NCBI RefSeq assembly: GCF_004570975.1
Contig: NZ_SPPC01000001.1
Span: 248,001 to 312,000, forward strand
Source of the DNA: Barnesiella sp. WM24
GTDB lineage: Bacteria; Bacteroidota; Bacteroidia; Bacteroidales; Muribaculaceae
Direction of reading: 5' to 3'
Length of the DNA stretch: 64,000 bases
Below are positions 25,852 to 50,480 of this stretch, in pieces; position 1 is the first letter of the stretch; the number at the start of each line of letters is the position of its first letter. A program made the translations under genes and the position numbers. The notes under the pieces are model-generated. The model saw nothing but the letters and a program-made list of their open reading frames with translations, was not told the origin of the DNA and made no database searches.

Positions 25852-26814
25852 TCAGGCGGTGGCAGTAAGGAGGGTTGCCGAGCCGGTCGCGATTATAGAG
25901 GGCGCGGTTGACGCAGCCACAAGTATAGTCTCGCCACGGCGCATGGGAGTGGTGACATCACCGGTAATGACAGAGCATTCACCGTCAAGACACATAATCA
26001 CCACAAATGAATCGGGCTCCGTAGTGACACGTATCTCTCCGTCGACCATGACACGGCGCACATCGAAATGGTCACACTTTACAAGCTCAGTCTCGCCTTT
26101 GGAATTCTTGTCATAGCTTCCCTTATACTCGGGATAAACAGTGTAATCAATCGCGTCCTTGGCAAGCTCAGTGTGCAATTCACGTGTATTGCCATTGGCA
26201 TCACGACGGTCAAAATCATACACCCTGTAAGTGATGTCGCTTGTCTCCTGAATCTCCGCGAGCAGATTGCCCGCCCCTATTGCATGGATGCGTCCGGCCG
26301 GAAGGAAAAATATGTCGCCGGGGGCTGAATCATGAGCCGCCACGACATCCATTATCTTCTTTTCTTCAACAAGGCGGGTGTAATCATCGGGAGTGATCTT
26401 TTCAGAGAGACCGGCATAAATACGCGCACCGGGCTCGGTATCGACGATATACCACATTTCGGTTTTGCCAAGACTCTGATGGCGCTTGCACGCAAGAGCG
26501 TCATCGGGATGCACCTGCACTGAAAGATCCTTCTTGGCGTCGATGAGCTTGACAAGCAGGGGGAATGTGTCGCCATACTTTTCAATCACATGGCTTCCCA
26601 TAAGCGCTGCGCCATATTTTTTCACCAGTTCCGGCAATGTAAGTCCTTTGTCGGGACCTTCACTCACCACTGATTCATGACCCGGGACACCCGAAATCTC
26701 CCAACTTTCGCCGATGTTGTCACAATCTGACTCGATGCCCTTGAACGGGGCTATCTTGTTGCCGCCCCAAAGCACAGGCTTCAGGTAAGGCACAAATTTA
26801 AACGGAGCAATCAT
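25852..26814 (-). CDS. manA: Mannose-6-phosphate isomerase, class I
   Basis: 320 residues of the short type I PMI. LKPVLWGGNKI at the start, zinc-site motifs QVHPDD, KTEMWYI and GRIHAIGAGN, then a C-terminal cupin half. Interconverts mannose-6-P and fructose-6-P in the cytoplasm. As last gene of the mannan PUL it delivers mannose from the phosphorylase pathway into glycolysis; the needed phosphomannomutase or mannokinase is not in this window. Confidence 0.93.
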   Translation of the reverse strand: MIAPFKFVPYLKPVLWGGNKIAPFKGIESDCDNIGESWEISGVPGHESVVSEGPDKGLTLPELVKKYGAALMGSHVIEKYGDTFPLLVKLIDAKKDLSVQVHPDDALACKRHQSLGKTEMWYIVDTEPGARIYAGLSEKITPDDYTRLVEEKKIMDVVAAHDSAPGDIFFLPAGRIHAIGAGNLLAEIQETSDITYRVYDFDRRDANGNTRELHTELAKDAIDYTVYPEYKGSYDKNSKGETELVKCDHFDVRRVMVDGEIRVTTEPDSFVVIMCLDGECSVITGDVTTPMRRGETILVAASTAPSIIATGSATLLTATA

Positions 26815-26851
26815 AGTAACTCTAAAAATTCTTTTTTACCTATAAAAACAA

Positions 26852-28036
26852 TTATTCCGACAAGACGCGCACGACCTCGGTGCACATGCGGCTGTTATGG
26901 TAGGGGCACTTCCAGAAACCTGCCTTGTCGTCATCACGGTTAAGGTCACCCACGGCACGACGGCTCCAATGCCACTCGCCTCCTTCGCGGTCAACGATAT
27001 TGTCACGGATATATTTCCAAGAATTTATAGCCTTGTCAAGAGCACCGACAACACCGTGGAACTTATGGAGATAGACGAGACCTATCACATCCTCAGCCTG
27101 GACCCACCAGTGGCGGTCATCGTCAAGACGCCCGTCGCCGTGCAGTTCATAGACCATTGACGCGTCGTCACATCGTCCTTCAAGCGCCGCCTCGGCTATG
27201 CGCCTTGTATGGACAATAGCCTTTTCAAGCAACGCCTCGTCGCCGAGTTCCTGAGCGGTCTCCAGCAGCAGCCACGACGCCTCGATATCGTGTCCGTAAG
27301 ACACATTGCGGTCATGGCGGTGCCACTCCTCGTCAAAGAACAGTCCGAGGTGACCCGTCGCCTTATCTTCCATCACGTCAAGGAAAAGGTCGAGCAGATG
27401 CACGATAGCCTCGCGCAATCTCGGCTCTTTCCATACGCGATACAGGTTAGTATACGGCTCGATAATGTGGAGATGGGTGTTCATAGTCTTAGCCATGTTC
27501 TCATCCTTGTCGCTGAGACGCATGTCGTCTATTCTCCCCCACTCACGCGTACACGCCTCAAGATAGCCGCCGTTGACACGGTCGCGGCTATGAGCCTCGA
27601 TTGACTCAAACAGTTCTATAGCACAGTCAAGCGACTCCTTGTCGCCTGTGGCACGCACATACTCGCTCAGTCCATATATGACAAAGCCGATAGCGTAAAA
27701 CTGCTTCTTGGTGTCAAGCGGCGAGCCGTCAGCGTTAAGCGACCAATAGACGCCGCCATATTCATGGTCGACAAAATGCCGGATGATATAATCTTTGGCG
27801 CGTGTCGCCATTTCAAGATATTCCGGTTTTCCGGTAGCCCGGTAAGCCGACGCAAAGCTCCAGAGCAGGCGCCCGTTAAGGATCGCGCCTTTCGGTGCGT
27901 CTTCATCAAGGCGGTCAAAGCCGTCGCAGCGGCCATAAAAGCCACCGCGAGGGTCAACCATCTTGTCTATCCAGTAGGGAAGTATGTTTCCCGTAAGATT
28001 TTCAAGCAATTCCGAGCAGAATTCTTTTTCTGTCAT
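26852..28036 (-). CDS. Cellobiose/mannobiose 2-epimerase (AGE superfamily)
   Basis: 394 residues, an (alpha/alpha)6 barrel of the N-acylglucosamine 2-epimerase superfamily. Catalytic histidines occur in NTHLHIIEPY (His188, His190), SYGHDIEASW (His249) and CPYHNSRMC (His380), the pattern of cellobiose 2-epimerases. In Bacteroides mannan loci the homologue converts beta-1,4-mannobiose to mannosyl-glucose for the GH130 phosphorylase two genes upstream; the same enzyme type also epimerises cellobiose. Cytoplasmic, no signal. Confidence 0.9.
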   Translation of the reverse strand: MTEKEFCSELLENLTGNILPYWIDKMVDPRGGFYGRCDGFDRLDEDAPKGAILNGRLLWSFASAYRATGKPEYLEMATRAKDYIIRHFVDHEYGGVYWSLNADGSPLDTKKQFYAIGFVIYGLSEYVRATGDKESLDCAIELFESIEAHSRDRVNGGYLEACTREWGRIDDMRLSDKDENMAKTMNTHLHIIEPYTNLYRVWKEPRLREAIVHLLDLFLDVMEDKATGHLGLFFDEEWHRHDRNVSYGHDIEASWLLLETAQELGDEALLEKAIVHTRRIAEAALEGRCDDASMVYELHGDGRLDDDRHWWVQAEDVIGLVYLHKFHGVVGALDKAINSWKYIRDNIVDREGGEWHWSRRAVGDLNRDDDKAGFWKCPYHNSRMCTEVVRVLSE

Positions 28037-28063
28037 CGTAGTAATCGGTAATTAATTAATAAA

Positions 28064-29503
28064 TCAGACCGGCTCCACATTAGAGTCACCGGGATCGGCA
28101 ACAGGCTGCTTACGCTGCTTCTTCAGTTCAGCGACAATCTCTTCCATACGGCGGGTGTTAAGCGGATAAAGCCACACGATAATCATGGATATGAGCGCCA
28201 CGCCGGCAGGGATAAATGTCATCAGCATCCAGAGACATGTGATGGCGCTGTCGGGCTGTGCTATATCAAGTGACTGCGCTCCCTCGGGACGCTCCACATA
28301 GCCGAAGCCGTGAAGCAGCCACATGACCGCAGCACCACCGATTGCACCGCCAAACTTCTGAGCCATCGACGCCGAAGAGAAGATGAGACCGGTAGAGGCG
28401 GAGCGATATTTGAGTTCCGAATAATCGCTCACATCGGCATACATCGACCAGACGAGCGGCGACATTATACCGGTAAGCACCGAAATCACAATCTGAAGCA
28501 ACAACATCATGACAAGACCGGCATTGCTTTCGGGCGAGCAGAGGAAGAAAATCACGCTCATGACAATCAGCGACAGGTCCACGAGAATGAATGTCGCTTT
28601 CTTGCCAATCTTCTTTGTGATACCTACGGCGAGAGCGACACCTACCATATTTGCCACTTCACCCACTCCGAGGAACAATCCTGAATAGAAGAGCATCGAG
28701 ATGGCAAAGATGACAATATGCTGTTCGCCGCCGATGATGTCGGCAAAGAAGAATGCTACCGTCGCGCCACGCACAGTGTTGAAAAGGTTGAAGCAGAGTG
28801 ACGCACCATTGAGCAGCCACCACGGCTTGTTAGTGACAAGCGCCTTGAGGTCCTTGCCGAGCGACGCCGTACACTCGGTGGTGAGCTGTTCGCGGGTGAG
28901 CTTGAAGCAGAGGAGGAAGAGGATGAAGCAGCATGCTGCAATCACGATCATGGCAAACTGCCAGCTTGACTGGAGCGACATCCCGAATGTGTTACGGAAA
29001 AGAGTACACAAGGGATCCCACGCAAAAAGCGAGATAAATGAACCGCCATAGGCGAAGAACATACGGAATGACGAGAACACCGTCTTTTCCTGCGAGTCTT
29101 CGGTCATCACGCCGAGCATCGCTCCGTAAGGCACATTAATACCCGTATAGACGGTCATCATCATAATGTAGGTTACGTAAGCCCACACAAGTTTCGCGGC
29201 ATAGCCCCAGTCAGGAGTGGTAAAAAGCAGGATACCGCATATCGAGAACGGAGCAGCCACCCACAACAGATAAGGACGATACTTGCCCCAACGGGTCTTG
29301 GTGCGGTCGGCGACGGCACCCATCATGGGGTCGCTTACGGCATCCCATATACGGGTTACCAGAAGCAGCAGACCGGTATCTATCAGTGACAGTCCGAACA
29401 CATTGGCGTAGAAAAAGGGCAGATAGTAACTGAACACTTTCCAGAACATCGACGACGCCATGTCGCCGAAGCCATATCCTATCTTTTCACTAAGTGAAGC
29501 CAT
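28064..29503 (-). CDS. GPH-family sugar:cation symporter (probable mannobiose importer)
   Basis: 479 residues, twelve membrane helices. The GPH/MelB signature is clear: KIGYGFGDMASSMFWKVFSY at the N-terminus, TRIWDAVSDPMMGAVADRTKTRWGKYRPYLLW, and the mid-protein motif for the second half. It lies between the epimerase and GH130, the same position as the mannobiose transporter of the B. fragilis locus, so inner-membrane uptake of mannobiose or related disaccharides is inferred. Confidence 0.88.
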   Translation of the reverse strand: MASLSEKIGYGFGDMASSMFWKVFSYYLPFFYANVFGLSLIDTGLLLLVTRIWDAVSDPMMGAVADRTKTRWGKYRPYLLWVAAPFSICGILLFTTPDWGYAAKLVWAYVTYIMMMTVYTGINVPYGAMLGVMTEDSQEKTVFSSFRMFFAYGGSFISLFAWDPLCTLFRNTFGMSLQSSWQFAMIVIAACCFILFLLCFKLTREQLTTECTASLGKDLKALVTNKPWWLLNGASLCFNLFNTVRGATVAFFFADIIGGEQHIVIFAISMLFYSGLFLGVGEVANMVGVALAVGITKKIGKKATFILVDLSLIVMSVIFFLCSPESNAGLVMMLLLQIVISVLTGIMSPLVWSMYADVSDYSELKYRSASTGLIFSSASMAQKFGGAIGGAAVMWLLHGFGYVERPEGAQSLDIAQPDSAITCLWMLMTFIPAGVALISMIIVWLYPLNTRRMEEIVAELKKQRKQPVADPGDSNVEPV

Positions 29504-29537
29504 AATCGAGATTTATGATATTAGAGGTTAAATAAGA

Positions 29538-30713
29538 CTACTTTTTATTCAGGATGGCAAGATTGCTGTCGATAAGACGATTTAGGGTCTTGACCGACTC
29601 GCCGGTCGAAAGACCGTCCTGCGGTGTGTTCATGCAATAGTCGACAAGACGGTCGATAGTAGAGGTGGCTACATGCATGCGGGTATCGCTTGATGCATAA
29701 TATATAAACACCTTTCCGTCTTCATCGGCAATCCAGCCATTGGTGAAAAGCACGTTCATCACGTCGCCTATGTACTCTTCTCCCACGGGAGCCATGAAAT
29801 ATCCGCCGGGGGTGTAGATCGGACGCCAGGGCTCGTCAAGCGCGGTCATGTACAGGTAAAGCACATAACGTAGACCTGAAGCACAGCCTCTAACACCGTG
29901 GGCAAGGTGAAGCCAGCCTTTGGATGTCTTGATGGGGTGAGGGCCCTCGCCGTTTTTCACTTCCTTGATGGTGTGGTAATGGCGGCAGTCAACTATCAGT
30001 TCATCCTTGATTTCAGCATGGGTGATGTCATCTACAAGCGCCCAGCCTATGCCGCCGCCGCTTCCGGCATCGATGAAGCCATCCTGCGGACGGGTGTAAA
30101 GAGCATATTTTCCGTCGACAAACTCAGGATGAAGCACCACGTTACGCTGCTGGCTGCGGCTCTTGAGATCGGGCAGACGCTCCCAGTTTACAAGGTCCTT
30201 GGTGCGGGCGATACCACAGGTGGCGGTAGCAGCCGACAGATTTCCGGGCTGAGAGTCGTCGTGACGCTCCACGCAGAAGAGTCCGTAGATCCAGCCGTCC
30301 TCATGACGGGTGAGTCGCATGTCATAGATATTCACGCCGGGCACCTCATCCTCAGGCATGGTGATCGGATGATCCCAGAAGCGGAAATTGTCTACTCCGT
30401 TGGGGCTCTCGGCTACTGCGAAAAATGACTTGCGGTCGCTCCCTTCCACACGCACCACGAGCACATATTTGTCGCCCCACTTGATGGCGCCCGAGTTGAG
30501 AGTGGCGTTGACGCCTATGCGCTCCTCAAAGTAGGGATTGGTAGTCTCGTTGAAGTCATAGCGCCAGAAAGGAGGTGCCATTTCAGCCGTCACCACCGGA
30601 TTTTTATATCGTTCATAGACGCCGTTGCCTTCGATTGGCTCGTTTTTACGGGTAACAAGTTCCTCATAACGATTGAGGACAAGATTCTTGCGATGTTCAA
30701 AGATGTTATTCAT
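29538..30713 (-). CDS. GH130 4-O-beta-D-mannosyl-D-glucose phosphorylase
   Basis: 391 residues, five-bladed propeller of GH130 subfamily 1. The catalytic acid is Asp131 in [14 protein letters not shown], at the same number as in the B. fragilis mannosylglucose phosphorylase as I recall it. Phosphate-binding Arg/His residues occur in [14 protein letters not shown] and [11 protein letters not shown]. It cleaves mannosyl-glucose with phosphate to mannose-1-phosphate plus glucose, saving ATP. Cytoplasmic, no signal. Works with the epimerase, symporter and ManA of the same transcript. Confidence 0.93.
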
Positions 30714-30788
30714 CAGATAGGATTGTATTCTTTAATGGTAAACTAATTAGGATATCTTTTGATTAAATCGTGGTAGAAAACCGTGGCG

Positions 30789-31889
30789 TCAATCCACAAA
30801 GATTGCGCCCGAAGTCTCGTGAAACTTCTTAAAGTCATCTTCAGAGGGATGCCCGGGATAAGGCACATAGAAGTGATTGGGCTTTTCGCTTTCGATAGCG
30901 TTGCGCCACACACACACATAAGCGATAGGCAGTCCCTTGATCGCCGGTTCAAGCACGCGGGTGTACCAGTCGGTCACGCCGAGTCCTTCAAGACCGGTCT
31001 CTGTCAACGCGGCGACCTTGCCACGCTTCTGCGCTTCCTCTACGACAAACGGCATCTGAGCCTTTATGCGGTTGACATAGGTGTCAACACCCGCCTCTCC
31101 GTCAAAATGATAGATGTCGGTGCCGAGAATGTCGACATATTCATCACCGGGGTAAGTGGAGAAATACTCTTCCGGAGTCAGATCCTTGTCGGGAGAATAT
31201 GCCCACACCACATTGTTGATGCCGCGGGCGTCAAAGCCGGCACGTGTCATCTTCCAGAGATTGATATACTCTTCGGGAGTGCCGTGATCCCTACCCCACC
31301 AGAACCACGAGCCTGAATTTTCATGCCAGGGGCGGAATATCACGGGGATAGGATTGCCCTCACTGTCTTTCAGCGAAGCCACAAATGCGGCGGCGCGGTC
31401 AATCCACACCTTCATCGTGTCGCTCACGCCGGTGCCCTCTTGAAGGCTGTGAAGCGGGGTGCCTGTAACATCCCACGAATTGCCTCCTGAAACCGGATTG
31501 AGCGGATGCCAGCTTATGGCGTTGATGCCGCCACGCTCATGCTGCTTTGCAATCTCGGCGGCGATGAAGCTAAACGGCACTCCGTCAAGATTCCGTGCAG
31601 AGTCGACCTCGATCATGCCGAGATCCCAGCTCATCAATCCGGGATACTGACCTGTCACAGCCTTTACGTCGGAACCTCCGTCGACATATCTCCACGTATG
31701 CCCGTAAGCCGTGTCGTCATGATGGCCGAAATAGTAGTGACCGCTTCTTGCCACAGAGTCGAGGCGTGAAATCATCGCCTCGCGCGGTGTCGCCACGCTT
31801 TCGGCGGCAGCCTCAGTCTTGTTGCCCTTGGAGCTGCTGCACGAACTTACCGCGAGCGCTGCCATGAGCGCAAATAATCCATATTTCAT
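30789..31889 (-). CDS. GH26 beta-mannanase lipoprotein, probably periplasmic
   Basis: 366 residues. Lipobox AVSSC (Cys17) followed by SSSKGNK without acidic residues, so no surface-export signal. GH26 catalytic domain: acid/base Glu190 in FRPWHENSGSWFWWG and nucleophile Glu297 in ALTETG; YYFGHHDDTAYG and GQYPGLMSWDLG are typical. Close in pattern to BoMan26A/BfMan26A, which release mannobiose from the non-reducing end; this fits the mannobiose importer and epimerase downstream. Confidence 0.9.
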   Translation of the reverse strand: MKYGLFALMAALAVSSCSSSKGNKTEAAAESVATPREAMISRLDSVARSGHYYFGHHDDTAYGHTWRYVDGGSDVKAVTGQYPGLMSWDLGMIEVDSARNLDGVPFSFIAAEIAKQHERGGINAISWHPLNPVSGGNSWDVTGTPLHSLQEGTGVSDTMKVWIDRAAAFVASLKDSEGNPIPVIFRPWHENSGSWFWWGRDHGTPEEYINLWKMTRAGFDARGINNVVWAYSPDKDLTPEEYFSTYPGDEYVDILGTDIYHFDGEAGVDTYVNRIKAQMPFVVEEAQKRGKVAALTETGLEGLGVTDWYTRVLEPAIKGLPIAYVCVWRNAIESEKPNHFYVPYPGHPSEDDFKKFHETSGAIFVD

Positions 31890-31916
31890 TACAAGGTGAA
31901 TTTTTTTAGTAATAAA

Positions 31917-34355
31917 TTAACCGAGAGTGACCTCGACTGTGTTTACACTTCCCTCCGGCTTATGGGCCACAAGATTGCCGTCGACCTCTTCGCCGTTGAC
32001 CACAAGACGCTTAACGCCGCGGTTCACTCCGTCAGGATTGTCAATCTTGATTTTGTATTCAGCGCCACGGAATTTACGGGTTATCTCATAATGTTTCCAG
32101 TCCTTGGGCACACAGGGGTCTATGAGCAGTCCGTCGTAATCGGGCTTGATGCCAAGGATAAACTGGGTTATGGCATACCAGTTCCACGCGGCAGTACCGG
32201 TGAGCCAGGAGTTTTTCGCCTCTCCGGGACGGTAGGCGTCCTTGCCGGCGGTCATCTGGCAATACACGTAAGGCTCTACCTTATGCAGGTCGCTTTTCTC
32301 TTCGAGATAAGCGGGACATATCTTGCGATAATACTCCCATGCCTCGTCGCCGCGCCCGAGCACAGTCTCGCCTATAATCACCCAGGGATTGTTGTGGGCG
32401 AATATGCCGGCGTTTTCCTTGTAGCCCGCGGGATAGGTCGAGATTTCGCCATATTCCATCACATACTCGGTAAATGCGGGATTGTTAAGCACGATGCCAT
32501 GCTCGCAGTCAAGATATTTCTTAACCGAGTCAAGCGACTTCTCTACAAGCCCCGATTCAAGACCGATTCCTGCCATCGTACACCAGCCCTGGCTTTCGAT
32601 AAATATCTTGCCCTCCTTGTTTTCGTGGCTGCCGACCTTATTGCCGTAGAAGTCATAGGCACGAAGGAACCATTCGCCGTCCCAGCCATGCCTCTTGACA
32701 GCCTCTACCATCTCGTCGACATGCTTCTGCGCGCGGTCAGCCTCGTCGTCAAGACCGAGCTTGCGGCACAGCTTCACATACTCCTCTCCATAGATTACAA
32801 ACTGACCGGCTATCATCAGCGACTCAGCCTTTGAGCCCTCAGTCTTGTTTTCAGTGGTCTGGAACGACTCGTTGGGATCCATCGAGAAGCAGTTAAGGTT
32901 AAGGCAGTCGTTCCAGTCGGCGCGCCCGATGAGCGGCAGCCCGTGGGGACCGAGGTTGTTGACAACATGGTCAAACGACACCTTCAGGTGATCCATCAGG
33001 CTCACTTCAGAGCCTTTTACATTGTCAAAGGGCACCGGCTCGTCAAGTATCGACATGTCACCGGTCTCCTTGATATAGGCGATTGTGCCGAATATCAGCC
33101 ACATCGGGTCATCGTTGAATCCGCCGCCTATGTCATTGTTGCCTCGCTTTGTAAGCGGCTGATACTGGTGATAGCAGCCGCCGTCAGGGAATTGGGTCGA
33201 CGCGATGTCGATGATGCGCTCGCGGGCACGCTCCGGAATCTGATGCACAAACCCTACGAGGTCCTGATTGGAGTCACGGAATCCCATGCCCCTGCCGATG
33301 CCGCTTTCAAAGAATGACGCGGAGCGAGAGAAGCAGAAGGTGATCATGCACTGATACTGGTTCCAGATGTTGACCATGCGGTCAAGACGCTCGTCGCCGC
33401 TGTCAAGCGTAAAGCGACGCAGCAGGTTGTCCCAGTAGGCGCGCAGCTCGCCGAAAGCCTTGTCGACCTTTTCGGCGCTGTCGAAGCGGGCTATCATCTC
33501 GCGTGCCTTGGTCTTGTTGACCACACCCTTTGACTCCCACTTCTCATCCTGCTCATTCTCGACATATCCGAGCATGAACACGAGGTCGCGCGACTCACCC
33601 GGCTGAAGGGTGATTTCCATATAATGTGACGCTATAGGCGACCATCCGTGAGCCTCCGAGTTGCGGGGCTTGCCTTCGGTCACCACCTGAGGCTCGTCAA
33701 AGCCATTGTAAAGACCGAGAAATGACTCGCGGTCAGTGTCAAAGCCGTCGACAGGCGCGTTGACATGATAAAACGCGTAATGATTACGACGCTCTTTGTA
33801 TTCTGTCTTGTGATATATTGTTGAGCCGTCAATTTCCACCTCTCCGGTAGAGAAATTGCGCTGGAAGTTTTCCATATCGGTAGCCGCATTCCACAGACAC
33901 CACTCTATAAACGAGAACAGCTTGAAGCTCTTGGGCTTGTCGGTGGTGTTGGTCAGCGAGAGTTTTGCTATTTCAGCATGGGTGTCGAGCGGAACAAAAA
34001 ACAACAGTTCCGCGCGCAGTCCGTTTTTCTCGCCTTTTATGCGTGTATAGTTCATGCCGTGGCGACATTCGTAGCTGTCAAGGGCGGTTTTGGTAGGTTT
34101 CCATCCGGGATTCCACACTGTGTCACCATCCTTGATGTAAAAGTAGCGTCCGCCGGCATCCATCGGGACGCCATTGTAACGGTAGCGTGTCAGACGGCGG
34201 AACTTGGCATCCTTATAGAAGGAGTAGCCGCCGGCAGTATTGGATATAAGAGAAAAGAAGTCTTTATTGCCGAGATAGTTGATCCAGGGCCAGGGAGTGC
34301 GCGGATTGTCGATGACATATTCACGTGCCTCGTCGTCAAAGTGTCCGTATTTCAT
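31917..34355 (-). CDS. GH94 cellobiose phosphorylase-like enzyme
   Basis: 812 residues, the full length of cellobiose phosphorylases. N-terminal beta-sandwich ([35 protein letters not shown]), (alpha/alpha)6 barrel with [11 protein letters not shown] (358-368), and catalytic Asp483 in [12 protein letters not shown]. It would cleave cellobiose with phosphate to glucose-1-phosphate and glucose in the cytoplasm; activity on glucosyl-mannose is possible. First gene of its own transcript, with promoter box 34409-34416 and the terminator at 34459-34498 behind it. Its presence in a mannan locus points to glucomannan as substrate. Confidence 0.9.
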
Positions 34356-34408
34356 ACCTATTGGGAAAAATTTGGATTGGAAAGTTTATTAATGAATTTT
34401 GGATACGG

Positions 34409-34416
34409 CAAAAATA
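34409..34416 (-). promoter_or_regulatory. -7 box TATTTTTG for the phosphorylase operon
   Basis: Minus-strand TATTTTTG fits TAnnTTTG, 53 bases upstream of the GH94 start and just downstream of the terminator of the preceding unit. TTTTATA occurs twice about 25 bases apart immediately upstream. Confidence 0.5.
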
Positions 34417-34458
34417 GTAAATTATTTTATAAGCAACTCTTAAAAAGTGTTTTATAAA

Positions 34459-34498
34459 ATTCAGGTCCCGGGCGTTACTCCGGAGCCGGGACCTGAAT
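34459..34498 (-). terminator. Terminator after the SusCD-GH26 operon
   Basis: Perfect 13-bp stem (34459-34471 with 34486-34498), 14-base loop, T-rich on both strands (ATTTTATAAAAC on the minus side). Splits the PUL into an outer-surface unit and a phosphorylase unit. Confidence 0.85.
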
Positions 34499-34519
34499 AA
34501 AATAATATACCAAACTTAA

Positions 34520-36361
34520 TTATTTCACGTTGAAATCACCTTGGTTGAGTACATTGGGCGACTCCATCACTTGCTTCCAGACGGTAGCGTCGTGGTAAGT
34601 ATGGAACCCCATCTCGCCATCCTTCATGTCATACCACTGCATGAAGTAACCCCAGAGTGCATTGTATTTCTTAGCCACATCAGGCATAAGAAGGTTGCCA
34701 CACTCGGCGAGCACCACCATCTTCTTGAACTTGGCGGTATTGTTTACAAGGTCAAACTGACGGGTCTGGTTGGTAGCCTCGGGATCAAACTCAAGTGTCG
34801 GGTCAAGACCATAGAGGTTTTCGCCCTGCAGATAAAGGTCGGCGCCTATGATGTCGACAAGGTCGTCACCGGGATAAGCCTCGCGACACTTCTCGACTGA
34901 GGCAAGATTGCCGCCGTCAGTTGTCTGCACGTTCCATACCCATATAAGGTTGTTGATGCCATACTCGTTTTCAAGCTTGTTGCGGAGATACTTCCAAAGA
35001 CCCTTGGTAGCCTGTACGCTGTCGTTACCCCACCAGAACCATGCGCCGTTAGAGTAATCGCCGGCTGCCTCGTGAAGCGGACGCCACAGCACCGGAATGT
35101 TGGCTTCCTGGATGCGCTTCAGATAACCTGCAAGCTTCTTGATGTCCTTGTTGATAATCTCGTTTTCCCAAGTTCCGTCGATGACAGCCTGTGTCGGGCT
35201 GAAAGAGCGGTTAGCGTCAAAGCCGAGACGGGGGTCACCGTCGGTAATATAAACGCCGGTCACGGTGTAGCCCTGACCTGACACAACAAAACCGTTGGTC
35301 TTGATGTCGTCTACAATCGAGCGGTTGGTGATAAGCGAGTAGTTGTCACGGATGTCAAAATACTCGGTGCCGTTCTCATATCCGGTAGTTCCGGCGGGGC
35401 CGAGTGCCGGCCATCCGCTTGAAAGACTCTTCAATGAGCCCTGCGCACGCGATGTGTCGATGTCCTTGACCTTTACAAGGATACACTGTCCTGACGCAAG
35501 GTCGTCAAATACATTAATTTCAGAGGTGTTGCCCTCTTCATCGGTCACGGTCTTCTTCATGTCGGGGGTAAGCTGCAGAGCGTCCCAGTTGTCAATGACC
35601 ATGTTTCCTTCCCATATGGTAGAAAGTATGTTCTGCTTTTCAGTGGGAACATTCCAGTGCCACTGGATTTCGGGAATCGAACCGTTGTTCCATGCGGTCT
35701 GCACGGGAGTTATGTCGCCGTAGTCAATCCAGTTGGCGGGCGAAGCGTAAAGATGACCATAGTCAAATCCGAGCACTGCCGGAGTGTGACCCGACTGTGA
35801 CGAGATGAAGTCAACATACTTTGTGCCCCATGCCTCGTCGCTCATGCAGCCCGAGAGCTGAGTCTTGCCGTAATTGTCAAGAAGATACTGGAACACCTTC
35901 TTAGCCTCGGGAGTGGCGTTGGGATTAGTGAGGTTCTTGTCAAGCCATTCGGGGTTGATGCCCGCGTTGGTGTTGAACTTCACTGTCTTGGCAGCACACT
36001 TTGACTCGGGACGATCCTTGATGAATACGGCTCCCTCAGGTATCTCGAGGGTATATTCGGTAAAGTCGGTCATCGCCGGGAGCGTAAGGATAAGCTCCAT
36101 GCCGTTTTCAGGATTTACAGCAAGAGTGACAAGCTGACCGTTGAGAGTCACGTTGACACCTTCGGCTATACCTATAAGATTATTATAGGCGATAGTCATT
36201 GTCGGAGTGAACGCCGCCCTTACCGACTCGCCCTCGGCGATAGTCTGAGTGCGGACGATCATGTCCATGCCATCAAGCATCTCGTAGGTGTCATCGTCAT
36301 CACATGCGACCATCGAAACACCAAGCAAAGCTGCCGGCAATATATATTTAAATCTTTTCAT
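34520..36361 (-). CDS. Surface GH26 endo-mannanase with an inserted lectin-like module
   Basis: 613 residues. Lipobox SMVAC (Cys20) followed at once by DDDD, the acidic surface-export type. Residues 25-130 form a beta-sandwich domain; the GH26 domain starts near 155 (FQYLLDNYGKTQLSGCMSDE). The acid/base is Glu431 in WRPLHEAAGDYSNGAWFWWG and the nucleophile Glu553 in VVLAECGN. Between the first barrel strands and the acid/base, residues about 247-375 do not belong to GH26: they match the two C-terminal modules of the neighbouring glycan-binding lipoprotein (36386-38758). It is last in the SusC-SusD operon and probably makes the first cut in surface-bound mannan. Confidence 0.88.
   Translation of the reverse strand: MKRFKYILPAALLGVSMVACDDDDTYEMLDGMDMIVRTQTIAEGESVRAAFTPTMTIAYNNLIGIAEGVNVTLNGQLVTLAVNPENGMELILTLPAMTDFTEYTLEIPEGAVFIKDRPESKCAAKTVKFNTNAGINPEWLDKNLTNPNATPEAKKVFQYLLDNYGKTQLSGCMSDEAWGTKYVDFISSQSGHTPAVLGFDYGHLYASPANWIDYGDITPVQTAWNNGSIPEIQWHWNVPTEKQNILSTIWEGNMVIDNWDALQLTPDMKKTVTDEEGNTSEINVFDDLASGQCILVKVKDIDTSRAQGSLKSLSSGWPALGPAGTTGYENGTEYFDIRDNYSLITNRSIVDDIKTNGFVVSGQGYTVTGVYITDGDPRLGFDANRSFSPTQAVIDGTWENEIINKDIKKLAGYLKRIQEANIPVLWRPLHEAAGDYSNGAWFWWGNDSVQATKGLWKYLRNKLENEYGINNLIWVWNVQTTDGGNLASVEKCREAYPGDDLVDIIGADLYLQGENLYGLDPTLEFDPEATNQTRQFDLVNNTAKFKKMVVLAECGNLLMPDVAKKYNALWGYFMQWYDMKDGEMGFHTYHDATVWKQVMESPNVLNQGDFNVK
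35237..35623 (-). other. Lectin-like module inserted in GH26
   Basis: Codes for residues 247-375. Shared with residues 670-790 of the 36386-38758 protein: WEGNMVIDNWDALQ against YEGSAVVDGWGALQ; SLSSGWPALGPAG against IGQGSNWAGLAG; and DDIKTNGFVVSGQGYTVTGV against DQMVNNNGFILQGNGIEITK. Confidence 0.72.
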
Positions 36362-36385
36362 CGTGATGTTGTTATTCAGTTATTA

Positions 36386-38758
36386 TTACTCGATAGTAAG
36401 CTTGGTTATTTCTATACCGTTACCCTGAAGGATAAAGCCGTTGTTATTAACCATCTGATCAATATCCTCCTGAGTCAGCTGATATGCTACGACTCCATTG
36501 GGAGCGGGACAATCGAAGTAACCTTCTTCATTGGTATCGGGAGAAGCGATTGTTCCTGCAAGACCAGCCCAGTTAGAACCCTGACCTATCTTAATCTTTC
36601 CGGTGTCGCCGGTAAGAGTGTTGTAATATATACGGAATGTCTGTCCAGCCTTCCAGGTGCTTATCAGATTAGCGATAATGCCATCATTCCAGGCAAACTC
36701 CTGTAAAGCGCCCCATCCATCAACTACGGCAGATCCTTCATAGAATGCTGTCTCAAGTGAGTTCTCATACCAGAGGGTAAGCTTGTTAAGGATATAGTTG
36801 GCACCTGTCATCACAAGACCACCTTCATTAATAAGAGCTTCCTTCATCGCTGCTGTTATGGTGATTTCGGCAACTCCGTCAGGGAATTCAGTGAACAGGT
36901 CGATATTTCCTTCATTATAACCCATGTCAGCGTCGGGAAGAGAAGCCCAGCTTCCGTTGCCAAATCGCATCTGAGCATAATCGGCTCCTTCTGCAAATGT
37001 GAAGTAAGCCTTGAGCTTCCAGCCTACTTCAACTGTAGACCAGTCAAATTTACCCCATGAGAGGTCATCCATACCGTTCCAACTTGCTGAGAAGAGACCC
37101 TGCCAGATTACATTTTCAACCTCGGTAGCAGGGATTACGTCAAATTCACCTTCAAATGACTCTTCGCCTGACATGAGGGCAAACTTGGTTGCCTTACCTG
37201 CAGTCATCGGAAGATTGATATACAGGTATTCACCGTTAAGTATATACTGAACTTCCACTCCGTTGACCTTGACAGCGGTAAGTTTGTCGGCATTGGCAAC
37301 CTTGACTTTCATGATGTTGCCAGCCTTTACTTCCTCATCTTCAGCGGGCCACTCGGTTACATAAGCGATAGTCGGGAGGTCGACTGTAAGCTCGCCTGCC
37401 TCAACGGTCTCGCCACTCTTGAGGATAAACTTGACCATACCTGTCTGAGCAGTGAAGGGCACCTTTATCTTCAGTTCGGCAGCGGTTGCATCCTTAGCCT
37501 CTACAGAAGCCTCGCCCTCAAACACCACAGTAGCTATAAGATCAAGATTCTTACCTGTGATGGTAAGTTCTGCTCCGCCGGGCACGGGAGAGGGAGCGAA
37601 TACAACATTCTCGGGATGAGCTATTACTATAGGCAGAATGACAGTCTCGCCGCTCTTGAGATTGAGAGTGAGGTCGCCTGACCACGCAGTCGCGGGTACA
37701 GTCACCTTGACTTCAGTAGCGCTCACTAATTCGGGTTCAACGGCGTCGGTCATTCCGGGGAAGATCATAGACGCAACCATGTCCATGTTCACGCCCTTTA
37801 TAATCAGCTCCTCGCCAGCACGAAGACCGTCACCACAGTTGTGAGTCATGTCGGTAGGCACAACCATGCCGATATTTGCTACGGCAACTTTCACGCCTGA
37901 ACCGGGAACGACACATACAGCACCGTTGGAAGCGTTGTCGGGAAGATTGAAAGTAATCTTGCCATCTTCGGTAAGAGTAAACTCGACTTCATCCTCGTTG
38001 GGCATAACAACCTTGCGCACGAGGTCAAGGTCAGTACCGGTGATAGTAATCAGGTCGCCGGGCTTTGCATCGGTGATGTCGATAGCCTTCTCTACAGCGG
38101 GAAGTATCACTTCAAGCTCTACTTCCGACCATATAAGGTTGGGGATTTCGGCGATAGCGTCAGAGATACCGACCGGACCGGTCACCGCATTGTCGGGAAC
38201 GATTACCTTGATGACATTGCGGGTGTGCTCGATGAACTTGCCCTCGTCGGCCTTATATACATTGGCGCTGTCAAGACCTTCTACAAACGAGAAGCACACC
38301 TCTTTCATCAGGTTAAGATATTCACCGTTGATGACAAGTTCCTGACCCGGCTTAACGCGGGCGGGGCTGAAGGTGTTTTCCTCGGCGAAGCTGATCGGCT
38401 CAAGGAAAGTAAGGTCGGTAAGAGTGGTAATCTTGCCGTTGGCATGGTTGAGGACCACCTTTCCGGGGAGGGCGGTCTGGGGGACAGTCACGCGAATCTC
38501 GCTGCCCGACACCACCGTAATATTGGTGATGTCGTCGCAGCCGGGAATGGTTACTGAGTTAATCTGGTCGAGACCGCTACCGATGAAACGGAGTTCACCG
38601 CCACGCGCCACGGGGCACGGACCGAACACCTCAAGCGAGATGCCGCCACGGTTCTGGTTGGTGTCGAAGTCGTCATCATTACAAGCGGTAAACGACAGCG
38701 AGGTCACCAACATGAGGCACATCATTAGGAGTGCCGTATATTTGCTGTATTTTTTCAT
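36386..38758 (-). CDS. Surface glycan-binding lipoprotein with IPT/TIG repeats and two lectin-like modules
   Basis: 790 residues from ATG 38758, which gives a lipoprotein signal (MKKYSKYTALL...LSFTAC, Cys26) and acidic NDDDFD for surface export. An upstream ATG at 38788 overlaps the previous gene by eight bases and adds ten residues before the signal, so it is less likely. Five or six IPT/TIG Ig-like repeats (about 35-450), each with a pattern like ARPGDxLxIxGxxLDLV, form a stalk. Two homologous C-terminal modules (about 547-669 and 670-790) carry exposed Trp residues and probably bind glycan. Role: SGBP holding mannan near SusCD. Confidence 0.82.
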   Translation of the reverse strand: MKKYSKYTALLMMCLMLVTSLSFTACNDDDFDTNQNRGGISLEVFGPCPVARGGELRFIGSGLDQINSVTIPGCDDITNITVVSGSEIRVTVPQTALPGKVVLNHANGKITTLTDLTFLEPISFAEENTFSPARVKPGQELVINGEYLNLMKEVCFSFVEGLDSANVYKADEGKFIEHTRNVIKVIVPDNAVTGPVGISDAIAEIPNLIWSEVELEVILPAVEKAIDITDAKPGDLITITGTDLDLVRKVVMPNEDEVEFTLTEDGKITFNLPDNASNGAVCVVPGSGVKVAVANIGMVVPTDMTHNCGDGLRAGEELIIKGVNMDMVASMIFPGMTDAVEPELVSATEVKVTVPATAWSGDLTLNLKSGETVILPIVIAHPENVVFAPSPVPGGAELTITGKNLDLIATVVFEGEASVEAKDATAAELKIKVPFTAQTGMVKFILKSGETVEAGELTVDLPTIAYVTEWPAEDEEVKAGNIMKVKVANADKLTAVKVNGVEVQYILNGEYLYINLPMTAGKATKFALMSGEESFEGEFDVIPATEVENVIWQGLFSASWNGMDDLSWGKFDWSTVEVGWKLKAYFTFAEGADYAQMRFGNGSWASLPDADMGYNEGNIDLFTEFPDGVAEITITAAMKEALINEGGLVMTGANYILNKLTLWYENSLETAFYEGSAVVDGWGALQEFAWNDGIIANLISTWKAGQTFRIYYNTLTGDTGKIKIGQGSNWAGLAGTIASPDTNEEGYFDCPAPNGVVAYQLTQEDIDQMVNNNGFILQGNGIEITKLTIE

Positions 38759-38780
38759 TGCTGATACTCGATTTTGATGG

Positions 38781-40151
38781 TTATTCATTGATTACCGCAC
38801 GGATGTTGTCAATCTTGATGATAGGCTGACACTCTGCACCGTTGACACCGCCGCTCACGACAAACATGGTAAGGCTCGCGAAGTCTTCCGGCTTGGATGG
38901 AGTCTTGCCGGCGCCGGTACCCTTTGCGGTATAGCGGAACTGAGAGAAGGGAAGAGTCACGGTAATCCACTTGCCATCGGTGTGGTATTCGCCCTTGTCG
39001 GCAGTCTGCCACGGACGATAGAGATAACGGCCCCAGTCGGTCCAGTCACCCTCGCGATCCTTGAAGTCATCGCTTACCTCACCGTTGAACGCCCAAGCCT
39101 GAGCACCGGGAAGAGCTACGCTTATTCCGTCAATAGGATTGCTTGACAGAGAGAGCTGAGTAAGTCCCTGGAAGCATACCTGCATGGCACCTGCAGCCCA
39201 TACATTGGAAGAAGGGATGCACATCTCGAATTTAAGCGCCATCTTCTCGGGCTTGGAGAAGTCAGCCACATTATAAAGAGCCGCGCCCTGTCCGCTGGTT
39301 ATGTTCTGGGGATCATCCCATGAACCAGCCCAATACTCGAACGAGAACTTTGTGTCGGCCCATCCGCCGTCTTCCGACATGATAGCGTCGCCGTCGCCAA
39401 GCTGCAAGTAGTTGCCGCTAAATGAATAGTCATCGGCCACAATAGCCTGAGCGTGCCATCCCTGCTGCTCAAGACCGCCGTCAAAGCTGAAGAGCATGCC
39501 ACGGGTGTCAAGATAGTGGAACTTGGACTCACCCTTACCGTAGCGGGTAGTAACCTCAAGCTCGCCTTCCTCTGTAGCCCCGTCAGGGATTACGAATGTA
39601 ACGGCGGTCTGCTCGATGCTCTTGATCTCGGTCACGGGTATGTCACCGGGGAAGGTTATGGTAAGAGGCTTGTTGGGGTCATCCACGAAGTAGTTACCGT
39701 TGAGAGTAACCTCGTCGCCGGGCTTAGCATACTCGAATGAGAGCGAGAGCAGCGACGGACCGGGCACAAGCACGCGGAAATCAAATTCAGTGGTGACGCC
39801 ATCCTTGTTGATCATATAAATCTTGTTGGTCTCCACTTCGGGAATGCCGCGCGGAATATTTACAAGGAGTGTATGGTCAGTGATGTAGCTTGTGTTGAGC
39901 ACAGCCTTCTGGTCGTTGAAGTACATCTCGCGGATAGAGGTGAGGTTGTCGCCGACAAGACATATCAGATTGTCGACATAAGCCTCGGTCACCAGCGAGT
40001 CGGCACCGGCAGTCATGCGCACATAGCGCACGGAAGGAGTACCGTCGGTAAGCTCAAACTTGTCGGGTTCGTCCTCGCAGGATACCATTGAGACACCCAT
40101 TGCTGCGGCAAACACCGGAAGAAGCCATTTTGTATATTTGAATTTATTCAT
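38781..40151 (-). CDS. Surface glycan-binding lipoprotein (SGBP-A type)
   Basis: 456 residues. Lipobox SMVSC (Cys25) with EDEPDKF, a surface-export signal. Two IPT/TIG domains (about 35-115 and 120-210) precede a beta-sandwich domain (about 215-456) containing WADTKFSFEYWAGSWDDP, a cluster of aromatic residues suited to sugar binding, and ending IIKIDNIRAVINE. Such proteins follow susD in most glycan PULs. The gene lies 24 bases after susD. Confidence 0.82.
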   Translation of the reverse strand: MNKFKYTKWLLPVFAAAMGVSMVSCEDEPDKFELTDGTPSVRYVRMTAGADSLVTEAYVDNLICLVGDNLTSIREMYFNDQKAVLNTSYITDHTLLVNIPRGIPEVETNKIYMINKDGVTTEFDFRVLVPGPSLLSLSFEYAKPGDEVTLNGNYFVDDPNKPLTITFPGDIPVTEIKSIEQTAVTFVIPDGATEEGELEVTTRYGKGESKFHYLDTRGMLFSFDGGLEQQGWHAQAIVADDYSFSGNYLQLGDGDAIMSEDGGWADTKFSFEYWAGSWDDPQNITSGQGAALYNVADFSKPEKMALKFEMCIPSSNVWAAGAMQVCFQGLTQLSLSSNPIDGISVALPGAQAWAFNGEVSDDFKDREGDWTDWGRYLYRPWQTADKGEYHTDGKWITVTLPFSQFRYTAKGTGAGKTPSKPEDFASLTMFVVSGGVNGAECQPIIKIDNIRAVINE

Positions 40152-40175
40152 TGTACAGTCTGTGAATTTTAGCTA

Positions 40176-41936
40176 TTAGTAAGAATATTCCGTGCGGACA
40201 TCGCAAGAGATGGGATCCTTGAGAAGGTTGGGGTTGTAGACAACGTCCTCCGAGGGGAAAGGAAGAGTGAAGCTCTCCTTGGTCACGTTGGGCGCAGCTG
40301 TCTTGGTGTCATAACCTGCCTCGCCGGTATCATCTTTCTTGGCGGCTTCAGCGATATCCCACTTGCCGCTGTCGTAGTAATACTTGTAAAGGCTGTTTAC
40401 GTTCCAGAAAGAGTTACGACGCTGTCCTTTAAGCTCGTTGATGGCACGCTGAGGATCGTAGTAAGAGAGACGCACATAGTCATACCAGCGGTCGCCCTCG
40501 CCTGCAAGCTCGAGACGACGCTCTTTCCAGACATCTTCCCAGGTTACTACAGAGGGCTTGTCCCAGTAAGTAGGGATAGCGCGGTTGCGCACCTTATAGT
40601 AAGCGTCGATAGCTGAAGCGTCGGAAGTAGAGCCTGTGCCGCCCATCATAGCCTCGGTATAGATGAGATATACATCGGCAAGACGGAGGATGTGGGTAGC
40701 AAGAGCGCTGTACATGTTACCCGAAGCCACACCGGTAGCCTGAACGTGGTCGTAGTTGTTGCCATAGAGATGCTTCACGTTGTAAGCACCTGTAGGCGAC
40801 TGCCACTCGCCGGGACCTCCCTTGCCATACTCGCCGTCGTAGCAGAACTGGAGCACGTTGAAGCCGGTGAATCCGTCTTTATCTTTCTTGTCCTGCCAGA
40901 AGTATTCATACTTGTCGCCGGGGAGCATCATGGTAGCCTTGCGGCGGGTGTCGATGTCGGTGCGCGAAGAGGGATCTTCAAGCACGTCGATGCCGAAAGC
41001 GTCCTGAAGGTCGACAGAAGGGCCGCCGTAACCGCCCCAGCAGTCACCCCACTCGTCAAAACCTACCGGAGCAAGGTCGCTCTGGAGAGTGTTCTGCTGA
41101 GTCCAGGGGTCACGTCCTGCCTGCCAGCGCCACGCGATGAGTGACTCCTCGTTAGTGTTGTTGGCGAGACGGAAGATGTCAGAATAGTTGCTGAGCAGAT
41201 TTCTGCCTGAGTTATCGATTACATCCTTTGCATAGGCTGCCGACTTCTTGAGGTCGTCAGCGTTGAGTGAGCCTGAGAGTCCTGCGCGGGTAAGGTAAAC
41301 CTTGGCGAGCAGACCTTCGGCACAGTAGTAGTCGATGCGGCCGGGGGCTGAAGCAGTCTTGGGAAGAAGCTCCATAGCCTTTTCGAGAGTCATCACGATA
41401 TACTCGTATACATCCTCACGCTTTACCTTGAACTTGGAGTTGTAGGCTCCGTTAAGTTCGTCGGAGATATTGTGGATGATGGGCACATCGCCGAAGCTGC
41501 GCACGAGATAGAAGTAGGCAAGAGCCTTGAAGGTGAGAGCCTCGCCCATGCAAGCCTCGCGAGCTTCCTTTGACGCCGGTGACGCCTGAAGGTTGTTGTA
41601 GACTGTAGAGCAGTGAGCAATCACGGCCCAGAGAGAGTAAGACATGTTCACAAGGTCAGTATCGGTACCGTTGACGGTAAATGTCAGATAGGGAGACGAA
41701 CCCCAGTACATGTTGCCCGAAAGCACCTCACCTACCTTGATGAATCCGCGCTGGAAATCATACCAGGGCGAGTTGTAAAGGTAGTTGACACCCTGATAGC
41801 ACTGCTCGTCGGTCTGGTAGAAGTTGCCGGCGTTGTAGTTGTCTTCCGCAGGACGGTCAAGGAAGTCGTTGCATGACGACGCGCCTAAACCGAGAGCGGC
41901 AACTACGGCTAAATATTTGATATTTTTGATTTTCAT
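40176..41936 (-). CDS. SusD-like nutrient-binding lipoprotein
   Basis: 586 residues. Lipobox LGASSC (Cys22), CNDFLDRPAEDNYNAGNFYQ start typical of SusD, TPR-like helices, and the C-terminal SusD/RagB domain (ADVYLIYTEAMM, YYKVRNRAIP, WEDVWKERRLELAGEGDRWYD, in parts). It lids the SusC channel and binds oligosaccharide at the surface. Directly follows susC by 25 bases. Confidence 0.95.
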   Translation of the reverse strand: MKIKNIKYLAVVAALGLGASSCNDFLDRPAEDNYNAGNFYQTDEQCYQGVNYLYNSPWYDFQRGFIKVGEVLSGNMYWGSSPYLTFTVNGTDTDLVNMSYSLWAVIAHCSTVYNNLQASPASKEAREACMGEALTFKALAYFYLVRSFGDVPIIHNISDELNGAYNSKFKVKREDVYEYIVMTLEKAMELLPKTASAPGRIDYYCAEGLLAKVYLTRAGLSGSLNADDLKKSAAYAKDVIDNSGRNLLSNYSDIFRLANNTNEESLIAWRWQAGRDPWTQQNTLQSDLAPVGFDEWGDCWGGYGGPSVDLQDAFGIDVLEDPSSRTDIDTRRKATMMLPGDKYEYFWQDKKDKDGFTGFNVLQFCYDGEYGKGGPGEWQSPTGAYNVKHLYGNNYDHVQATGVASGNMYSALATHILRLADVYLIYTEAMMGGTGSTSDASAIDAYYKVRNRAIPTYWDKPSVVTWEDVWKERRLELAGEGDRWYDYVRLSYYDPQRAINELKGQRRNSFWNVNSLYKYYYDSGKWDIAEAAKKDDTGEAGYDTKTAAPNVTKESFTLPFPSEDVVYNPNLLKDPISCDVRTEYSY

Positions 41937-41961
41937 AAGTTGAATTCTGTTTTTAATAATA

Positions 41962-44900
41962 TTAGAACGAAATGTTTAGACCAAATGAATAGGTGGTCGG
42001 TGACGGATAGCGTCCGAAGTCAAGACCATATACAAGACCTGATGAATCCTGGGTTGATGCACCGATTTCAGGATCATAACCTTTATATTTGGTAAACGTG
42101 TATAAGTTCTGAATATTGCAGTAAACACGCAGATTTTCAAGATGGAGACGCTTCAGAAGTGACTTCTTGAAGGTGTAGCCGAGAGTGATGTTCTTTATAC
42201 GCAGGTATGAGCCATCCTCGATGTAACGGTCGCTGATGCGGTCGTTATCGTTCGGGTCGTTAAGACGTGCGGCGGGAACCTTTGTCTGCCAGTTCTTTAC
42301 GCGGATATTGGTGATATCGTCATACCAGTTCTGACCTGCGGGATAAACCTTGTTGGGGTCGATTGGCACGAGCTGCGCGCGGTCGCTGACCGAATTGAGC
42401 TGGTTGGTCCAGGTCGACTTCATGCCGGTAAGGTTGATTGCGAGGTAGTTCATCACGTCGTTGCCGTAAGAACCGTTAAGGAAGATCGAGAGGTCAATGT
42501 TCTTGTAACGGAAAGTGTTGGTCCATCCGAAAGTGAACTTGGGCATCGGCGAGCCGATGACAGTGCGGTCGTTGGCGTCGATTTTGCCGTCGCCGTTGAC
42601 ATCCTTGTATTTGAGGTCACCGACCCACACGGTGTTGCTCTTGTTGAACACGCCGTCGGAGGGGAAATGGTCGGGTGTCGGTGAGTTCATGATGTCGTCA
42701 TAGTCGCGGTATACGCCTTCCACTACATAACCGTAGAAGTTATAGAGCGGCTGACCGATTTCTGACACTGACACAACGTCGCTCCACTGACCGTAGCCTA
42801 CGAGCTGAGCGTTTTCGGTGCCGGAAAGGGCTTTGAGCTTATTGCGGTTGAAAGAGATCTGGAAGCTTGACTCCCACTCAAATTCTCCTACGAAAGGACG
42901 TCCGGTAACCTCGATTTCGATACCCTTGTTCTCGATTTCACCGAAGTTGCCCTTAGGAGCGGCAAGAGCTGAAGAGCCGTTACCCTGTGTACCCATGTAA
43001 GAGGGCAGCTGCATTGCCATAAGCATGTCCTTTGAAGTCTTGAGGTAAGCGTCGACAACGAAGTTCAAGCGGTTGTTGAACATGTTGATGTCGATACCGG
43101 CGTTCCACTGTTCCTGAGTCTCCCACTTGATACCGGGGTTGGCGATGTTGGCGGGACGGTAACCTGCACCGAGAGCTGAGGGCATACGGCTCATAGCCAC
43201 ACCCCATGCGTAACCGCCGATGTTGGCGTTACCGGTCTGACCCCATCCGAGACGGAGCTTACCGTTGTCAATCACGTTGCGCACAGGCTCGAAGAATTTC
43301 TCATTGGAGAAGCGCCATGCACCTGCCACTGAGTGGAAACCTGCCCAACGGTTCTCGGGACCGAAGTTTGAGCTACCGTCGTAACGGTAAGTATAGGTCA
43401 AGAGATAACGGTCATCCCAGTTAAGGGTCTCACGGGTGAAGAACGAAGCCATTGCAGAGCTGCCGAATCCGGCGCTGATGTTGTAAGAGTTCTTGTTACC
43501 GAGAGCGGGGTTGTGAACCTCGTCGGAGGGAAGACCTGAAGCGAAGATATTTGTGAAGTCGTAGCGTGACTCCCAACATTCCTGACCGACCATTGCGGTG
43601 TAGTGGAATTTATCCCATGCAGTGCCGTTGTAAGACACATAGTTTTTCAACTGCCAGAACCAGCTGGAGTTTTTCTGTATAGAGCTTTCGTTGCTGCTGC
43701 GCACCCAAGAGCCGAGGTCAACCATCGGTTTGTAGCGGTCAGCCTTGGAAGCGCTGACATCGTAGCCGAATTCGGCATGCCATACAAGATTCTTGATCGG
43801 AGTCACATCGAAGAAGATGTTACCGGTAAGTTTCTTACGGCGGAGCAGAATGTCATCTAGCATAGCAAGCGCGATGGGGTTGGGGTTGGTGTAACCCTCA
43901 CGTACTACAGAAGAGAAGTTGCCGTCGATATCATAGATAGGTATATCGGGGAGTGTCGTGAGCGAGTAGTTGATGATACCCTGCTCGCCGTCGGCAAGCT
44001 TGAGGCTTTCATCAGTGTCGGTATAGGTGGCGCTGAGACCGAGCTTCAACCATGACTTGAGCTGCGCGTCAAGGTTGGCGCGTACAGAGAAACGGCTGAA
44101 ATCAGAACCGATAAGCGTACCTTCCTGGTTCATATAAGAACCTGACACATAATACTGCACTTTGTCAGTACCGCCCTGAGCCGATACCTGGTGCTGATTC
44201 TGGAGAGCTGTGCGGAACACCGCATCCTGCCAGTTGGTACCGACACCGAGTACAGAGGGGTCGCGATACCAGTCATTTGCTGTCTGGTAACCGTTTGCCA
44301 CAAACTCATTGTAATATTCAGCATATTCGCGGAGGTTCATCATGTCAAGGCGCTTGTTCTGGTGGTTGACAGCAAACATACCGTCGTAGGTGAACTTAGC
44401 CTCGCCTGACTTACCGCGCTTGGTGGTAATGAGGACGACACCGTTGGAGCCCTGCGCACCGTAGATTGCGGTAGCCGAGGCATCCTTTAGAATCTCCATT
44501 GACACGATGTCGGAGGGGTTGATGGTTGAAAGAGGCGACACGGTCGACACTTTACCGTTACCGAGGGCGTCACCAAGACCGAAGTCGGCACCTGAGTTAC
44601 CGCCACCCTGGACGATCACACCGTCGATCACATAAAGCGGCTCGGCGTTGGCGTTGATGGTTGACTGACCGCGCACGCGGATAGAAGATGAAGAGCCGGG
44701 GGCACCTGAGGTTGCCATTGCCTGCACACCTGTGGCACGTCCCTGAAGAGACTGGTCGAGGTTGGTGATGATTGATCCCTTGAGGTCATCCTCACTCATT
44801 GACACAGAAGCACCTGCAAGGTCACTCTTCTTCATGACACCATAGCCGACTACCACAACCTCGTCGAGCGAAACGCCCGATTCTTTCAAGGTAATAGTAA

Positions 44901-45183: not shown

Positions 45184-45269
45184 GAGCAATTTTTAAGGTA
45201 AGGTTAATGTATTTAGGTTAGAATAGTTGGTTTATAATTACTGCACTGTCGGGCATAATACACCCTATG

Positions 45270-45316
45270 CAAAATTAGGCATATGGACAGAGATATAATA
45301 ATACAATTTTATCTCT
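45270..45316 (-). promoter_or_regulatory. susC promoter and candidate operator
   Basis: -7 box TAATTTTG on the minus strand (45270-45277). Just upstream is an inverted repeat AGAGATA-N14-TATCTCT (45289-45295 with 45310-45316) in the -20 to -45 region. Transcription would give an 80-base leader before the susC ATG. The AraC regulator at 50566 is the natural candidate to bind. Confidence 0.5.
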
Positions 45317-45344
45317 ATATTGCACTTTGTTGACTTATATGTTG

Positions 45345-46613: not shown

Positions 46614-46626
46614 TGTTGTATGGTAT

Positions 46627-47928: not shown

Positions 47929-47957
47929 TTTTCAAGTATTGTTTAGATTCGCAAAGA

Positions 47958-49409: not shown

Positions 49410-49427
49410 GATTTGATACTTGATTGT

Positions 49428-50429: not shown

Positions 50430-50480
50430 GGAATTGAGTAAATATGTTTAATTGGTTGATTAATAATAATTCCTATGTCA

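Follow-up and report, generated by a model that had tools for sequence, protein, structure and literature searches.

A CBM112-type module within the catalytic domain of a GH26 mannanase from a Bacteroidales mannan utilization locus

The stretch of DNA analysed here (the window; 64,000 nucleotides of Barnesiella sp. WM24, contig NZ_SPPC01000001.1, positions 248,001 to 312,000) holds a mannan utilization locus with a phosphomannose isomerase at one edge (25852) and an AraC regulator at the other (51441). One of its genes encodes a glycoside hydrolase family 26 (GH26) mannanase whose catalytic domain is interrupted by what appears to be a carbohydrate-binding module (CBM) of the CBM112 type. The genes are ordered as phosphomannose isomerase, epimerase, GPH symporter, GH130, a second GH26, GH94, the GH26 with the module, two surface glycan-binding proteins (SGBPs), SusD, SusC, a carbohydrate esterase of family CE7 (AXE1), GH5, a SASA esterase, another GH5 and the AraC regulator; the SusC and SusD genes are presumed to be such from their sequence and from general knowledge of these proteins. 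The interrupted enzyme matched the Pfam family PF02156 with an E value of 3.8e-45, and two of its glutamates were invariant across a 24-row GH26 alignment: E431, which from this alignment and familiar GH26 motifs we take to be the acid/base, and E553, which we take to be the nucleophile. Cys20 is followed by four aspartates and was judged by eye to belong to a lipoprotein signal, the acidic residues presumably directing the protein to the cell surface. In an AlphaFold2 model the N-terminal domain was predicted to consist of strands only, with ten-residue blocks at a predicted local distance difference test (pLDDT) score of 74-95.

Residue-by-residue alignments of the enzyme to four solved GH26 relatives broke off at residues 242-247 and restarted at 382-385. 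GH26 matches at E 1e-20 or better were found in 52 of 297 genomes of the same family; nine of these aligned end to end across the insert, one (G195, L012) ended at a contig edge beside it, and in the remaining 42 none of the matches listed (in many genomes, four scored candidates) spanned residues 249-373. The enzyme was present in two of the 14 genomes of the window's own genus, both times with the insert, and in nine of 27 genomes of another genus, that of G006 (seven with the insert, one without and one truncated). The loop leading from the HW motif to the next motif was 143-166 residues long in nine proteins with the insert versus 34-43 in eight relatives without it; the latter count leaves out L087, likewise insert-less, which the pattern had cut wrongly at 60. 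Since the insert recurs in relatives and the loop lengths are bimodal, an assembly artefact or a frameshift is, judging from these sequences, a very unlikely source. In one insert-less GH26 (L085:8776-10203, plus strand) the loop has 43 residues, eight more than in its sister L084 (35 residues), and might hold the scar of a lost insert.

The preliminary description of this DNA had proposed that a glycan-binding-type module, homologous to modules of the adjacent binding protein, sits inside the GH26 catalytic domain, and both proposals were borne out. A profile built from the insert matched the SGBP modules, and the solved structure that it matched best was that of an SGBP-B domain co-crystallised with a glycan; when modelled alone with AlphaFold2, the insert was predicted to fold into a compact CBM-like beta-sandwich of strands and one helix (pLDDT 85.0), as in CBM112. 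One alternative is that the segment is simply an enlarged native GH26 loop with no independent module. It does lie in a barrel loop that the full-length model resolves poorly, but this idea was rejected, and we give it almost no weight, in view of the homology to modules of other proteins, the stand-alone beta-sandwich model and the two separate ranges of loop length. The insert and the SGBP modules gave only weak, scattered matches in Pfam, with no family assigned, and NCBIfam listed none for the window GH26.

The preliminary description knew of no GH26 with such an arrangement. Such a case had already been published: Los et al. (Cell Mol Life Sci 2026; PMC13357471) reported GH26 enzymes from B. 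cellulosilyticus and B. uniformis whose catalytic domain is interrupted by an intercalated CBM, founded the family CBM112 and measured binding to beta-mannan. The architecture is therefore not new. The family comprises 82 members, of which 61 are GH26s of this type, in genera including Bacteroides, Prevotella and Duncaniella; other members sit in SGBPs, CE7 and GH5 proteins (PMC13357471). Our literature search for CBM112 yielded this paper only. In it, family-wide conservation is stated for two tryptophans alone; the cleft residues Y310, Q293, S295, K297 and Q262 are implicated by mutation or model, with no statement that they are universal, and H339 is auxiliary, as H339A retains almost half of the affinity for polysaccharide.

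Seven of these eight published residues were found in the window insert, W257, Q262, Q293, S295, K297, W301 and Y310 of BcWH2_GH26 aligning with W259, Q263, Q307, S309, K311, W317 and Y334. Among the 17 insert modules examined (a set without L140 and L144-L150), the two tryptophans, Q293, S295, K297 and Y310 were each present in all 17. The setting is also the usual one for CBM112, that is, inside a GH26 with an N-terminal beta domain and a lipoprotein signal, within a mannan locus. Several points weigh against the assignment of the insert to this family. The eighth residue, H339, is replaced by Q363; histidine occupies this position in 11 of the 17 modules and does not define the family. The two tryptophans are 58 residues apart in the window versus 44 in BcWH2, the second tryptophan and the tyrosine 17 versus 9. 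In the full-length model the pLDDT of the insert is mostly below 50, and the alignment behind the stand-alone model included SGBP-module rows, which tilts it toward a shared fold. Membership is argued from residue positions, predicted fold and context. The window glutamine Q263 lies one residue closer to the first tryptophan than in BcWH2. In a relative, L078, the spacing of all eight residues is identical to that of BcWH2; in another, L121 (554 aa), W257, Q262, Q293, S295, K297, W301, Y310 and E411 show a constant offset of -4 from BcWH2 numbering, and H339 is one residue off. None of the fetched proteins matched BcWH2 numbering without an offset.

The two C-terminal modules of the neighbouring SGBP also keep both tryptophans, but of Q293, S295, K297 and Y310 the first retains only Q293 and the second only Y310. 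These four residues occurred together in 17/17 inserts, in four of five CBM112-like SGBP modules (picked for how well they matched the insert profile) and in none of 50 other SGBP modules, in which the tryptophans were kept in 47 and 50 cases. The two neighbouring modules scored 119.7 and 118.2 bits to profile A2, which was built with both of them included, versus 12.0 and 12.6 bits to profile A1. As the full signature is found in the insert and not in its neighbours, the insert is regarded as CBM112-type and the neighbours as a sister group, with the same tryptophan platform and, as far as the residues indicate, other determinants of specificity.

One possible explanation for the proximity of these modules is a local duplication of the SGBP's C-terminal module into the enzyme. 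The genes are adjacent, the motif EGxxVxDxWxALQ is common to the insert and the second SGBP module, and the latter ranks second of 24 in similarity to the window insert. Across 14 inserts and 24 SGBP modules, however, pairs from the same locus were no more alike than pairs from different loci (58.1 in both cases, 26 and 310 pairs, permutation p 0.29), the specificity residues differ, and on the module tree the insert and the neighbouring modules fall on opposite sides (98 rows, few columns, support of 63 for the deepest split, which is weak). A local duplication is hence unsupported by the same-locus comparison, and we consider it highly improbable. The earlier view that one locus uses the same module twice consequently holds only at the superfamily level.

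The history of the insert was examined on a tree of GH26 cores from which the insert columns were excluded (54 rows, or 52 once the long-branch rows L128 and L129 were dropped; LG+G4 without a mixture model, with a bootstrap that had not fully settled). One alignment in which module rows were combined with complete GH26 rows placed the modules wrongly; it was excluded from the results, as was another, A3. On the core tree the 13 insert-bearing GH26s need four state changes; their union in one clade was rejected (approximately unbiased (AU) test, p 4e-67, 52 rows), and so was that of the nine belonging to the window's own family (p 0.011). Cores and modules also differed in how alike they were: L078 and L080 are 70% identical in the core and 35% in the module, with the steepest fall at the insert, whereas the modules exceed the cores in L077/L124 (53% and 38%) and in L081/L123 (54% and 37%). 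On the module tree, five modules from a well-supported core clade were rejected as one clade (AU p 4.35e-05, a generous value because the core clade was picked after the identities had been seen), and the nine own-family inserts were narrowly rejected (p 0.047).

Tandem double inserts within one GH26 were found in three genomes: G505 and G1170, each with a 718-aa frame, and G1082, which belongs to another family (665 aa). The two modules of G1082 are 47% identical to each other, and the second is 53% identical to an SGBP module of L121; G1170 has a double insert on a second contig as well, in a 520-aa frame. A GH26 in which such a module is N-terminal and not inserted was also observed (L128:7911-9536, minus strand), resembling in this placement the Prevotella case of PMC13357471. 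That paper suggests that a CBM112-type SGBP module excludes the insert; L121 has both, and in L037, L125 and L126 CBM112-type SGBP modules accompany an insert-less GH26, loci that are too few to settle the matter.

We lean toward the reading that Bacteroidales GH26 mannanases have, in the loop that follows HWNVP, a natural slot for modules, which CBM112 enters, leaves, swaps and doubles independently of the catalytic domain and whose occupants share ancestry with the modules at SGBP ends; as the modules swap in this manner, mannan recognition would be re-tuned by exchange and not by point mutation alone. In a different scenario the insert-bearing enzymes would form an ancient lineage in which the insert was retained; other lineages would have lost it, and no module would have passed from one host to another. 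Counts of changes leave gain and loss indistinguishable, a single clade of all inserts against the five SGBP modules was not rejected (p 0.144), and core and module identity correlate at 0.44 over all 78 pairs, all of which suits this scenario. It does not easily accommodate modules that are more alike than their distant hosts (L077/L124) or far less alike than their close ones (L078/L080), nor the rejection of the five modules as one clade, even with that clade chosen after the fact, and we hold it to be unlikely. Separate insertions, recombinational exchange and an ancient presence followed by losses may all have played a part, in some mix. Word starts for horizontal, recombination and tandem were absent from the main text of PMC13357471, and among the titles and abstract beginnings returned by our literature searches no other paper on module exchange or tandem inserts was recognised.

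Taken together, these results very probably describe a surface GH26 endo-beta-mannanase with a CBM112-type module, expected to grip mannan, in the barrel loop after HWNVP, a loop that looks like a module slot in evolution. W259 and W317 would stack mannose rings, while Tyr334 with Gln307, Ser309 and Lys311 would select mannose, so that the module may bind beta-1,4-mannan that is sparsely decorated and at least four mannoses long, and hold the polymer at the cell-surface complex, beside the active site without extending it. The barrel (E431/E553) would then cut the mannan and SusC/D import the products. Over evolution the loop may have gained a module, lost it, taken up a different CBM112 variant in its place or received two. 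Mannan binding, the orientation of the module and its lack of direct catalytic benefit are inferred for the window from the enzymes of Los et al. (PMC13357471). The benefit of the module to the cell is unproven, because deletion of the CBM from BcWH2_GH26 did not significantly change its kinetics (PMC13357471). That result also counts in favour of a module that has lost mannan binding, or whose ligand is a different glycan or a partner protein, and that acts as a spacer positioning the enzyme in the surface complex; so do the glutamine in place of H339, the longest branch among the inserts of the module tree, and a closest solved domain crystallised with mixed-linkage glucan. Given that seven of the eight cleft residues are kept, including both essential tryptophans and Tyr310, and that the enzyme lies in a mannan locus, we think such a spacer improbable.

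Beyond the window, the gene order is widely kept in 17 wide loci of other genomes in this family, picked from the 52 with a GH26 match (eight with the insert, nine without), although GH94 is missing from some. No 800-aa SGBP was seen in the mannan loci of L088-L090, and in each a 484-485-aa frame past the epimerase consists of three such modules (L088:15461-16912, plus; L089:15346-16800, plus; L090:369-1820, minus). Module matches at E 0.001 occurred in 16 of 393 genomes sampled across the order, six of the 16 with the insert in a GH26, and in two of 395 sampled across the phylum, one being the own genome and the other from the same order; at E 1e-10 they occurred in 6/101 genomes of the family of G315 and 6/15 of that of G505. 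Elsewhere in the own genome (G000:C38; L127:7818-10553, minus), a 911-aa protein beside mutS combines a CBM_4_9 domain with two modules distantly related to this one; the 19.5-kb stretch around it gave no SusC/D-like match. Within the window, the second SGBP (38781-40151, minus) contains a xyloglucan-binding SGBP-B family domain (PF18329, E 8.7e-40), and a SMI1/KNR4 (SUKH) domain protein lies just past the AraC regulator (51709-52638, minus).

Table 1. Features of the mannan locus and of related enzymes (window positions unless a locus is named)
Feature	Position	Strand	Remark
Mannan utilization locus, phosphomannose isomerase to AraC regulator	25852..51441	-	
GH26 endo-beta-mannanase with inserted CBM112-type module, predicted surface lipoprotein	34520..36361	-	613 aa
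N-terminal all-beta (Ig-like) domain, predicted, residues ~36-132	35966..36256	-	AlphaFold2 model
GH26 catalytic domain, first part, residues ~138-242, ending just past HWNVP	35636..35950	-	
Inserted CBM112-type module, residues ~243-373	35243..35635	-	
GH26 catalytic domain, second part, residues 374-613	34523..35242	-	
SGBP, TIG/Ig repeats followed by two C-terminal modules	36386..38788	-	800 aa; TIG PF01833, modules by profile
First C-terminal SGBP module (residues 551-672), CBM112 sister group	36773..37138	-	profile and tree
Second C-terminal SGBP module (residues 673-800), CBM112 sister group	36389..36772	-	profile and tree
GH26s with two tandem CBM112-type modules	L123:8976-11129, L153:8950-11103, L151:8435-10429	-	two different families

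The internal CBM112 is hereby extended to a further Bacteroidales locus, and the family is tied to a solved, glycan-bound relative that may guide the modelling of specificity; crystallisation of a CBM112 ligand complex had failed (PMC13357471). If the loop is indeed a slot, it marks a place in a barrel enzyme where nature has already tested the insertion of binding modules, and pairs such as the one with 70% identical cores and 35% identical modules are natural material for probing the role of the internal CBM, which the 2026 paper left open (PMC13357471).

Among known systems, the closest are BcWH2_GH26 and BACUNI_00373 (PMC13357471), in which a beta-sandwich of about 115 residues is intercalated in the GH26 as in the window; they share with it the N-terminal beta domain, the lipoprotein signal, a mannan locus with SGBPs and, at corresponding positions, the binding tryptophans, Tyr310 and the cleft Q/S/K residues. 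The window differs from them in its longer module, in Gln for His339 and in an SGBP with two sister-family modules. BoMan26B (PDB 6hf2/6hf4) has the GH26 core in common with the window enzyme (307 residues aligned at 2.1 A) but lacks the insert. The solved relative of the insert, the C-terminal domain of the B. ovatus mixed-linkage glucan SGBP-B (PDB 6e57, 6e9b; crystallised with a mixed-linkage heptasaccharide according to the entry title), is terminal in a binding protein, unlike the internal window module, and is without the Q/S/K/Y signature that the latter possesses; '6E57' does not appear in the main text of PMC13357471, and passages of PMC12016534 and PMC8612152 yielded nothing on this domain. 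GH10 xylanases and SusG likewise carry a CBM inside the catalytic domain, with other enzyme and CBM families (PMC13357471).
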